The notes under the pieces are model-generated. The model searched no databases and was not told the DNA's origin. It saw nothing but the letters and a program-made list of their open reading frames with translations. A stretch of 64,000 nucleotides of DNA from Mycolicibacterium pulveris (lineage in GTDB: Bacteria; Actinomycetota; Actinomycetes; Mycobacteriales; Mycobacteriaceae). Made by a program: the position numbers and the translations under genes. The stretch is from the NCBI RefSeq assembly GCF_010725725.1, contig NZ_AP022599.1:558001-622000 (forward strand). The letters run 5' to 3'. This document shows, piece by piece, positions 2,011-4,804 of the stretch (the stretch's first letter is position 1; every line of letters starts with the position of its first letter).

Positions 2011-2570
2011 CTAGAAGACCACGGTCTGGTTGCCGTATCTGATGATGCGGTCCTCACAGTGCCACAGCACCGCGCGAGACAATACAAGGCGTTCCACATC
2101 GGCCCCGAGACGCTGCAGATCCGCCACGTCGTGGCGGTGGTCCACACGCACCACGTCCTGCTCGATGATCGGGCCTTCGTCGAGATCGTCGGTGACGTAG
2201 TGTGCGGTCGCGCCGACCAGTTTGACCCCGCGCTCCTTGGCGCGCCGATACGGCGCGGCGCCGATGAACGCCGGCAGAAACGAGTGGTGGATGTTGATCA
2301 GCGGACAGCCGACCTCGTCGATGAACCGCGGCGTGAGGATCTGCATGTAGCGGGCGAGCACGACCAGGTCGACGTTGCCCTTCAACAGCTCGAGTTGGCG
2401 CTGCTCGGCCTGTTCGCGAATGTCCCTTGTCGCGGGCACGTGCAGAAACGGCACCGAGAACGGCCGGACCTGGTCGGCGAGGTCGGGATGGTTCGAGATC
2501 ACCATGGCGACCGCCATGTCGAGCTCACCTCGGCGGTTGCGCCAGAGCAGATCGAGCAGACAGTGGTCCT
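2011..2570 (-). pseudogene. purU: purU fragment, C-terminal (formyltetrahydrofolate deformylase), disrupted by an IS110 element
   Basis: This carries the C-terminal formyl-hydrolase domain of PurU, which splits 10-formyl-THF to formate and THF for the purine pathway. Visible are [17 protein letters not shown] at the break, then the active-site region [31 protein letters not shown] and the C-terminal NQTVVF. Removing the insertion and one TCCT copy restores ...[13 protein letters not shown]... in frame with the fragment at 4023 and no lost base. An internal ATG at 2517 could start a 168-residue piece, but that lacks the first strands of the hydrolase domain, so I treat it as non-functional. 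Confidence 0.92.
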
Positions 2571-2619
2571 TACCTTTCTTGGAGGGTGTTCGGGGCCGCT
2601 GGCCTTAGTTAGGCTTCGA

Positions 2620-2770
2620 TTCACCCAGGGACAGCGGGTATGGCTTTCATTTGTCAGCCCTTGATGGCCGAGGAGGATTGGCCGCCCGCTGTCCCGCGAC
2701 GACTCGACCGCTAATTGAGAGATGCGATTCGATCGCTGTGTAAGGACACGACGGCGTGGTCGTCTGCCGG
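2620..2770 (+). ncRNA. Probable IS110 bridge RNA (target-binding loop then donor-binding loop)
   Basis: Two nested hairpins are visible. The first has a perfect 11-bp stem, GGGACAGCGGG (2628-2638) with CCCGCTGTCCC (2685-2695). Its loop contains CCGAGGAGGA (2668-2677), which pairs with TCCTCCTTGG of the uninterrupted purU site at 9 of 10 positions plus one G-U. The second has stem GACGAC (2698-2703) with GTCGTC (2759-2764). Its loop contains CTAATTGAGA (2711-2720), matching 9 of 10 bases of the right end CTCATTGAGA (4012-4021), and GTAAGGA (2740-2746), the exact complement of the end junction TCCTTAC. Order and content match the bridge-RNA model known from IS621. RNA ends are approximate. Confidence 0.72.
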
Positions 2771-2780
2771 GCTGGTGGAA

Positions 2781-4007
2781 ATGGTGATGAGCACGGAGGC
2801 GGTAGTGACACAAGCTGTTTGGGCGGGTATCGATGCTGGGAAATCGGACCACTTCTGCGTGGTCATCGATGCTGAGGGAAAGCGACTGCTGTCGCAGCGG
2901 GTAGCCAACGACGAAGCGACTCTGTTGAAGTTGATCAGCACTGTCGCAACCATGGCTGACGGCGGTGAGGTCACCTGGGCCATCGATCTCAACGCTGGCG
3001 GTGCGGCCCTGCTGATCACGCTGCTGATCGCCGCTGACCAGCGGCTGCTCTACATCCCCGGCCGCACCGTGCACCACGCCTCGGGCAGCTACCGCGGGGA
3101 GGGTAAGACCGACGCCAAAGATGCCGCCGTCATTGCCGATCAGGCCCGGATGCGCCGCGATCTGCAACCACTGCGCCCCGGAGATGACATCGCAGTGGAG
3201 CTGCGCATTCTCACCAGCCGGCGCACCGATCTGGTGGCTGATCGCACCCGCACGATCAACCGACTGCGTGCCCAGCTGCTCGAATACTTCCCAGCCCTGG
3301 AACGCGCGTTCGACTACAGCACCAGCAAGGCCGCGTTGCTGCTGCTCACCGGCTATCAAACTCCCGATGGGCTGCGACGAGCCGGTGCTGCTCGACTGGC
3401 AGCCTGGTTGGGTAAACGCAAGGCCCGCAACGCCGACGCCGTCGCGGCCAAAGCCCTGCAGGCCGCTCACGCTCAACACACCGTCATACCCGGACAACAA
3501 CTCGCTGCGGCCATGGTTGCCCGCTTGGCCAAGGAGGTGATGGCCCTCGACACCGAAATCGGCGACACCGATGCGATGATCGAGGAGCGATTTCGCCGCC
3601 ACCGCCACGCCGAAATCATCGTGAGCATGTCGGGCTTCGGCGTCACGCTCGGCGCCGAATTCCTCGCTGCCACCGGCGGAGACATGAGTGCCTTCGACTC
3701 CGTTGACCGCCTCGCCGGCGTCGCCGGCCTGGCTCCGGTACCGCGTGACTCCGGCCGCATCAGCGGCAACCTTCAACGACCCCGCCGCTACAACCGGCGC
3801 CTGCTGCGCGCCTGCTACCTGTCGGCGCTGTCCAGCATTCGATCCGACCCCGTCTCGCGCACGTATTACAACCGCAAACGCGCCGAAGGCAAACGCCACA
3901 GCCAAGCCGTCCTGGCCCTGGCACGTCGGCGTCTCAATGTTCTGTGGGCAATGCTGCGCGACCACACGACCTATCAACCCACCACGCCTACTGCCGCAGC
4001 GGCTTGA
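2781..4007 (+). CDS. IS110-family transposase (DEDD recombinase with C-terminal Tnp domain)
   Basis: About 408 residues. The N-terminal RuvC-like DEDD domain shows AGIDAGKSDH (first Asp), AIDLN, and KTDAKDAAVIADQAR. A coiled middle part with RTINRLRAQLLEYFP follows. The C-terminal domain carries SMSGFGVTLGAEFLAATGG, where the Ser is the expected nucleophile, then AGLAPVPRDSG and RRYNRRLLRACYLSA. The start is placed at ATG 2781 (ATG 2787 is an alternative), because the earlier in-frame ATG at 2715 falls inside the predicted donor loop of the bridge RNA. All key residues are present, so the element looks active. It is transcribed against purU. Confidence 0.93.
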   Translation: MVMSTEAVVTQAVWAGIDAGKSDHFCVVIDAEGKRLLSQRVANDEATLLKLISTVATMADGGEVTWAIDLNAGGAALLITLLIAADQRLLYIPGRTVHHASGSYRGEGKTDAKDAAVIADQARMRRDLQPLRPGDDIAVELRILTSRRTDLVADRTRTINRLRAQLLEYFPALERAFDYSTSKAALLLLTGYQTPDGLRRAGAARLAAWLGKRKARNADAVAAKALQAAHAQHTVIPGQQLAAAMVARLAKEVMALDTEIGDTDAMIEERFRRHRHAEIIVSMSGFGVTLGAEFLAATGGDMSAFDSVDRLAGVAGLAPVPRDSGRISGNLQRPRRYNRRLLRACYLSALSSIRSDPVSRTYYNRKRAEGKRHSQAVLALARRRLNVLWAMLRDHTTYQPTTPTAAAA

Positions 4008-4022
4008 CAACCTCATTGAGAA

Positions 4023-4363
4023 TCCTCCTTGGACGCCATGATCGCCACCCGTTTGGGTTTCGCCGCCTCCGTGAGGCGAAAGTCCATGTTGAACCGGGAC
4101 GCAACCTGCGCCGCGAACGCGCGCTCTAATTCATCCCGGACAGCCGTCAGGCCGGGCAGATGGAAGATCGTGCGTTGCATGAACGTGCCACCGGACTGCT
4201 GGGTCGCATGCTGATCGAGCGAGACGATGTTGGCGCCGGCGTCGGCCAGAAACGCGCTCACGGCCGCCACCAGCCCGGGCCTGTCCGCGCAGCGCAGCAA
4301 CAGCCTGCCGACGTCCTTGACCGGCAGGGCGCCACGATCGGCATCCGGATACTTCTGCACCAC
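4023..4363 (-). pseudogene. purU: purU fragment, N-terminal (ACT domain)
   Basis: This is the N-terminal ACT domain of formyltetrahydrofolate deformylase: GRLLLRCADRPGLVAAVSAF, GANIVSLDQH, GGTFMQRTIFHLPGL and AAKPKRVAIMASKED. After KED the frame runs into the IS110 right end and stops two codons later. The 5' end is uncertain. GTG codons at 4363/4360 (VVQKYPDADRG) give a length like known PurU proteins, while an open frame continues to 4432. Without the hydrolase half it cannot be active. Confidence 0.88.
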
Positions 4364-4804
4364 CAGTCCTAGCGTGGCACCCGCCTGCGGCACGCGCACA
4401 AAAGTCAGGAACAACAGCGGCGACGCTCGCAATTTCGTCAGTCACGATTTTCAATTGCGGCAGCGGAAAACGGGTCGCGATCGCCGTGCAATTCCGCTCC
4501 CCGAGCCGTCCCTTTTGGTTCTTTCGGTCCCGCCGCCATTGTCCGCCGCCGACAGCCGCCGCGTGATCTTGCGGAATCGAACCAGTGCGGCAGCGGCCGG
4601 GAAAGCGCGCCGCGCGGGGTGTCCGACGGGCCCTGTCCAGCAAGAAATCCTGGGTTTCACCCGCGCGCGGGCACCGCACAACCCGCAGAATTGCCTCGCT
4701 GTTCACGTGTAGAGCAAAATTCAGCCACTCGAGACTCAGAAGCCGTGGACTTTCGGCAGCGAGTTCGCCACGGCCGCACATTCGAGTTGTGAGCTGGCAA
4801 AACA

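Follow-up and report, generated by a model that had tools for sequence, protein, structure and literature searches.

The window analysed here, a 64,000-nucleotide stretch from the complete 5.48-Mb genome of Mycolicibacterium pulveris, carries an IS110-group insertion element on its + strand at 2567–4024 (1458 bp with the TC core counted at both ends, 1456 bp if it is counted once), whose boundaries were set by comparing relatives and four sister copies, each at a different site. On the − strand, the element splits an open frame whose translation reads as purU-like into a 3′ part at 2011–2566 and a 5′ part at 4025–4432. The left target, ACAGTGGTC (2560–2568, + strand, core TC included), lies inside this purU-like gene, and the core TC with the right target, CTCCTTGG, spans 4023–4032 (+ strand), as assigned from the sequence and from comparison with sister copies and relatives. 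Seven relatives hold the same insertion site without the element, for example CAGTGGTCCTCTTTCGACGCC in L124. Elsewhere in the window, at 1447–1502, a 24-bp inverted repeat without mismatches and with a loop of 8 bases follows closely on an open frame read as an SDR-type gene and is probably a terminator.

An open frame at 2781–4007 (+ strand, ATG 2781 being the presumed start) encodes a 408-aa IS110 transposase. Pfam analysis of a longer, 430-aa version of this frame returned PF01548 (DEDD_Tnp_IS110, the DEDD RuvC-like N-terminal domain; E 6.4e-49) and PF02371 (Transposase_20; E 1.9e-16), both over cut-off. The solved transposases closest by sequence are those of ISCro4 (9t56, E 7.1e-7) and IS621 (8wt6, E 2.2e-4), and the closest named protein-scan records among the matches listed, the best 80 of 256 relatives, come from Mycobacterium at 84% identity. 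The transposase is preceded by a non-coding left end of 214 bp (2567–2780) and followed by a right end of 17 bp (4008–4024); the long non-coding downstream end of IS1111-type elements is absent. The genome encodes one more IS110-type transposase, the fifth, L143 (2045671–2046039; 439-aa frame), which has no match to the bridge RNA model described below.

Fold and conservation of the left-end RNA

The left end contains two consecutive stem-loops on the + strand. In the target-binding stem-loop (2628–2695), GGGACAGCGGG (2628–2638) pairs perfectly with CCCGCTGTCCC (2685–2695) to give an 11-bp stem, while the donor-binding stem-loop (2698–2764) is closed by GACGAC (2698–2703) and GTCGTC (2759–2764). 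Both stem-loops appear in the fold, the consensus and the covariation analysis, and the closing stems can be read directly in the sequence. A further 5′ stem-loop (2584–2626, + strand) is predicted by the single-sequence fold only and falls outside the consensus fold. The bridge RNA strand folded at −89.3 kcal/mol, whereas shuffles averaged −73.4 (z −3.3), and 1/200 shuffles was as good.

Conservation was assessed with 31 aligned sequences, namely the window copy and 30 relatives from Mycobacterium to Streptomyces, picked from 104 loci with a parsed target loop after L018, L088 and L107 had been removed from the list. Standard pairs fill 98.9% of the stem cells; cells changed on both sides number 61 versus 16 in shuffles (0/500 shuffles reach 61), and pairs with two-sided change number 9 versus 5.6 (1/500 reaches 9), although the consensus structure was derived from the same alignment, so that the test favours this structure over slid versions of it. 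A covariance model of the two-loop part found only the four element copies in this genome (E 0.001). Across 60 genomes of the genus it gave 17 matches, these four included, several of which are themselves model members; 17/17 adjoin an IS110 transposase. Rfam, run over the window at the gathering score, matched tRNA and no other family. An earlier note, made by reading the sequence, had proposed an IS110-group bridge RNA with a target loop followed by a donor loop, and had named conservation of the stem in homologous elements as a check. Direct reading finds all of its stems and loop strings at the positions it gave, and its proposal is borne out by the covarying stems and by the location of the covariance model matches beside IS110 transposases.

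Donor guides, target guides and core

Both donor guides, which lie on the + strand, are those that the note had picked out. The left one, CTAATTGAGA (2711–2720), is identical at 9/10 positions to the right end of the element, where the left donor TCATTGAGAATC (4013–4024, + strand) was matched by reading and is similar in relatives. The right one, GTAAGGA (2740–2746), is complementary at 7/7 positions to TCCTTAC, the core plus right donor (2567–2573, + strand), which varies with the guide in relatives. Complementarity between the right donor guide and the 7-bp left end was perfect in 25/27 distinct pairs (the exceptions being L098, 5/7, and L112, 6/7), with about three of the seven compared bases preset by the search patterns, and those of the core, one inner position and the last position free. 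Seven left-end sequences are represented in these pairs (TCCTTAC, TCCTTAA, TCCTTAT, GTCCTAC, GCCCTAC, TCCCTAC and CCCTTAC), and a pairing of TCCGTAA with TTACGGA can be seen by eye in L154, which was found later. That the two cores agree is no independent evidence here, because the parse required the same dinucleotide at both ends.

The ends also contain a divided promoter-like sequence, of which the −35-like TTGACA (4004–4009, + strand) overlaps the transposase stop codon and meets the −10-like TACCTT (2571–2576, + strand) only on joined ends. Joining gives TTGACA or TTGACT, a spacing of 17 or 18 bp and TAnnnT in 54/55 distinct junctions, the miss being L018. The promoter pattern was found in 0/55 cases in the inserted state, for which the left flank and left end were searched.

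The core is TC (2567–2568 and 4023–4024) rather than the CT of the earlier reading, because TC, not CT, is what relatives with other guides have in common at both junctions. Where right flanks differ, one junction still reads GAGAA-TC or GAGAT-TC and the other TC-CTTA, and CT was rejected on relatives with right flanks GATCC or CCAGTG, which share TC at the two junctions. For the target loop, reading, sister copies and swap tests agree with the note in placing the right target guide with core, CCGAGGAGGA, at 2668–2677 (+ strand). The left target guide had been assigned to a UGG near 2641–2643, a position rejected because sister copies and relatives place this guide at 2648–2655 (+ strand), where the window reads CATTTGTC with the core and three sister copies read CATTGGTC; the alignment of sister copies, the relatives and the swap tests all bear on this placement. 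The claim that the guide could be solved from one insertion went too far, as the left guide and the core become clear only from sister copies and relatives. The flanks of other copies, which the note had suggested collecting, did fit: these copies sit at targets matching the loop.

Four near-identical copies of the element are present in this genome (the window copy, L002, L003 and L004), each at a different site, and TC-CTCCT is the right flank common to all four. L003 and L004 have a one-base deletion each, and the transposase frame is broken in both. The window copy and L002 differ at one of 1458 bases, G to T at 2652, inside the left target guide. This base falls in CATTGGTC, the stretch after TATGGCTTT, which in relatives changes with the left flank (guide and flank both read TCATCGTTC in L007, TCCATATTC in L013 and ATGCGTTT in L120), thus indicating that the stretch is the left target guide and is altered in the window copy. 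The change could reflect decay, a sequencing error or the first step of a natural retargeting. Ungapped left-guide scores, out of 9, are 5.5 for L002, 8.5 for L003, 6.5 for L004 and 6 for the window copy, whose left side is weak alone and whose right-guide score of 7.5/8 is the best of the four; we read a one-base bulge in the left guide pairing of L002 and L004.

Guides and flanks across related elements

The comparison covered 122 loci, of which 120 have a transposase match and 104 a parsed target loop; some of the 16 loci with a transposase match and no parsed loop are fragments. The left end was resolved in 98 (all parsed loci except L068, L071, L075, L083, L084 and L097), and 73 of these 98 also have a right end. 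Scores for each guide on its own flank and on the flanks of other elements came from one and the same offset search, wobble pairs counting as half and identical guide–flank pairs counting once. Left guides (83 distinct pairs) scored 6.97/9 on their own flank versus 6.14 when exchanged within clades, and right guides (57 distinct pairs) 7.04/8 versus 6.08, with 0/10,000 shuffles as extreme on either side. With the core left out and swaps confined to the same clade and core, the scores were 5.85/7 versus 5.15 on the left (n=80; 0/10,000) and 4.99/6 versus 4.74 on the right (n=48; 4/10,000). Allowing one bulge on the left gave 7.50 versus 6.65 (0/5,000 shuffles). Over the whole set, the target-loop guides thus fit the insertion sites in swap tests with and without the core.

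The fit is uneven among elements. Guide and flank match at 9/9 in L074, L080, L082, L100, L108 and L110, and low right scores occur in L109 (4/8) and L100 (5.5/8); the left score of 1 for L030 arises because the parser took a wrong anchor. The own flank was best or equal best of all flanks for 29/91 left and 29/63 right guides, and uniquely best for 12 and 9. Own and swapped flanks do not differ for clade L041 on the left or for clades L022 and L026 on the right, mostly because their members use nearly one site; little difference was seen for L022 on the left, and in clade L074 the right guides with the core left out scored 3.86 on their own and 3.80 on swapped flanks. Six later-found elements were compared by eye, with a clear match in L151 and L154, a match with wobble in L155 and a partial one in L149, L150 and L152.

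In a Streptomyces-type clade (L074, L080, L100, L110, L113 and others) the right guides differ between elements, and to the eye several seem to match the opening bases of the right flank (TCACTG, TCAGTG), a fit that the swap test with the core left out hardly shows (3.86 versus 3.80). In a clade drawn mostly from Arthrobacter (L041, L042, L046, L049, L051–L053, L056, L060, L065 and L094) the guides are TTGCTGTG and CTCCGAAGGA-like, and the left flanks read (T)GCTGTC in 10/11, without lying at an ATG.

Insertion at translation starts and relation to known elements

The target CAT-N-TCCTCCT reads AGGAGGA-N-ATG on the other strand, and three of the four local copies lie between a Shine–Dalgarno sequence and a start codon, oriented against the gene (L002, ATG, 490 codons; L003, GTG, 264 codons; L004, ATG, 237 codons). 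The window copy does not; it occupies a look-alike inside a coding sequence. With a Shine–Dalgarno-type right guide defined as one containing AGGA, GGAG or AAGG, and a start as an ATG or GTG 3–9 bases left of the core that opens at least 60 codons, apparent gene starts were found at 37/55 distinct sites of elements with such guides versus 1/32 with other guides. Of the 18/55 sites lacking a start, 11 belong to clade L041, mostly Arthrobacter, where the type label may be wrong, and L036, counted as a miss, reads as the TTG start of a transhydrogenase-like gene. On the annotated plasmids L120 (L121 being identical there) and L122, the neighbouring gene is annotated as starting at the target CAT (595 and 598), and on plasmid L119 the annotated gene extends into the element. 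Elements with other guides sit at an EGDLI site in apparent IS30-type transposase genes or at sites in Streptomyces and Arthrobacter. The IS30-like label comes from the EGDLI motif as we read it; a 70-aa piece of the L025 flank had no Pfam match, and a piece of the L050 flank gave an integrase-core match (E 2.4e-5) below the curated cut-off.

In IS621, as described by Durrant 2024 (PMC11208160), the source for bridge RNAs and their loop logic, the left end is likewise non-coding with a target loop followed by a donor loop, the left guide pairs with the bottom strand and the right guide with the top strand, each including the core, and a promoter forms across the joined ends, a feature present here as a sequence pattern only. 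IS621 differs in its core, which is CT rather than TC (or GT, GC and CC in some relatives of the window element), in its shorter transposase (a 328-residue chain versus 408 aa, with the weak sequence match to 8wt6 given above), and in its targets and hosts, which here read as translation starts and are Actinobacteria. According to the same paper, IS621 also functioned with altered cores, though less efficiently, and we therefore ascribe CT to IS621 rather than to the family as a whole. The seekRNAs of ISEc21 and of the IS1111 family (Siddiquee 2024, PMC11187229) resemble the RNA described here in coming from a non-coding region, which lies upstream in the IS110 type, and in carrying stretches that match both target strands. 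In the IS1111 type, by contrast, the RNA lies downstream and subterminal inverted repeats are present, and the ISEc21 cluster transposases have 345–385 aa.

IS900 of Mycobacterium avium subsp. paratuberculosis, an IS110-family element of 1,451 bp present in 17–22 copies per genome, has the target motif CATGNNNNNNTCTCCTT according to PMC8141618. This is the form spelled by the right guide TCTCCTT together with the CAT-type left guides of L008–L012 and others, whereas the window guide spells TC-CTCCT rather than the IS900-type TC-TCCTT. An IS900 qPCR primer given in PMC10251955 matches 23/24 bases at window 2708–2731, the region of the left donor guide, and the four printed primers compared are identical to the window at 23/24, 18/25, 18/27 and 23/27 positions. 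IS900 is likely to be a relative of the window element, which belongs to a large actinobacterial group that probably includes it. Our search, which covered the main texts of mostly open papers, found none that names both IS900 and a bridge RNA, and a word search of the main texts of PMC11208160 and PMC11187229 found neither IS900 nor "mycobact(er)".

Taken together, it is highly probable from these comparisons that the window harbours an IS110-group element whose bridge RNA steers insertion to translation-start sequences. Natural covariation gives good support to a real bridge RNA, a new member, in a mobile IS900-like element, the predicted function being that the RNA probably chooses the insertion site by base-pairing with the element ends and landing sites. 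A mechanism is proposed where excision would join the two ends at the core TC and so place TTGACA of the right end 17 bp from TACCTT of the left end, so that the bridge RNA and transposase could be transcribed. In the joined ends, the right end would pair with CTAATTGAGA of the donor loop and TCCTTAC with its GTAAGGA. In the target loop, CATTGGTC would pair with the left side of the target, a start codon (CAT on the other strand), and AGGAGGA with the right side, a Shine–Dalgarno sequence. Recombination at TC would then insert the element between start codon and Shine–Dalgarno sequence.

That copies within one genome share a motif would also be expected if the transposase protein itself read the target, with the upstream RNA acting as a regulatory leader and the loop matches being coincidental or inherited. 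Protein readout predicts no identity with the loop, however, and is disfavoured because loop and flank change together in related elements (0/10,000 within-clade shuffles on both sides; 0 and 4/10,000 free of the core), which makes it very improbable. Slightly less probable again is that the element senses translation-start context, such as ribosome-bound or transcribed DNA, with the sequence match secondary. The 37/55 sites at apparent gene starts would agree with such sensing, but 31/32 sites of related elements with other guides lack the start motif, and the window copy, at a look-alike in coding sequence, outscores the other three local copies with its right guide, so that sequence rather than translation seems to be read.

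A further proposal, compatible with RNA-guided targeting, concerns its purpose, namely that Shine–Dalgarno targeting was selected since the host Shine–Dalgarno sequence then drives translation of an antisense frame. In the window such a frame (2499–4016, − strand, 505 aa) is open across the whole element (483 codons) from an ATG made by the right end, AGGAGGA TTCTCA ATG, which includes host Shine–Dalgarno-like sequence. In this it resembles hed, an antisense frame reportedly proposed for IS900, going by the title of Doran 1997. Antisense frames of at least 300 codons occur in 18/36 Shine–Dalgarno-class elements, several of them near-identical, versus 2/27 others, the comparator being the other-guide elements. 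Half of the Shine–Dalgarno class nevertheless lacks a long antisense frame, and the right-end CAT is also found in 26/27 other-guide elements, where donor pairing alone explains it. Moreover, antisense frames in register with sense codons tend to be open in GC-rich DNA. We regard selection for this purpose as unlikely.

Returning to RNA-guided insertion, we lean towards the view that in the IS900-like branch the bridge RNA is a portable copy of the translation-start signal, and that related branches swapped guides and core (TC, GT, GC, CC), the parts that interact with them changing to match. A target loop that carries a Shine–Dalgarno sequence and the complement of a start codon would give access to a very large supply of sites. 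The end that insertion leaves immediately before the displaced start codon, GGTAAGGA, is Shine–Dalgarno-like, so that a ribosome site may be retained by the target gene. In the inserted state of the window copy, the left end on the other strand (2567–2580) reads AAGGTAAGGA directly before the displaced target, which puts a Shine–Dalgarno-like sequence and a TAA stop there.

The guide assignment would offer a testable mechanism for a long-standing observation, the insertion of IS900-type elements at translation starts, in that the guide RNA spells that sequence. The 83 left and 57 right distinct natural guide–flank pairs, from Actinobacteria and with different cores, provide material on natural retargeting of bridge recombinases, and the elements supply candidate recombinases of a longer (408-aa) class.
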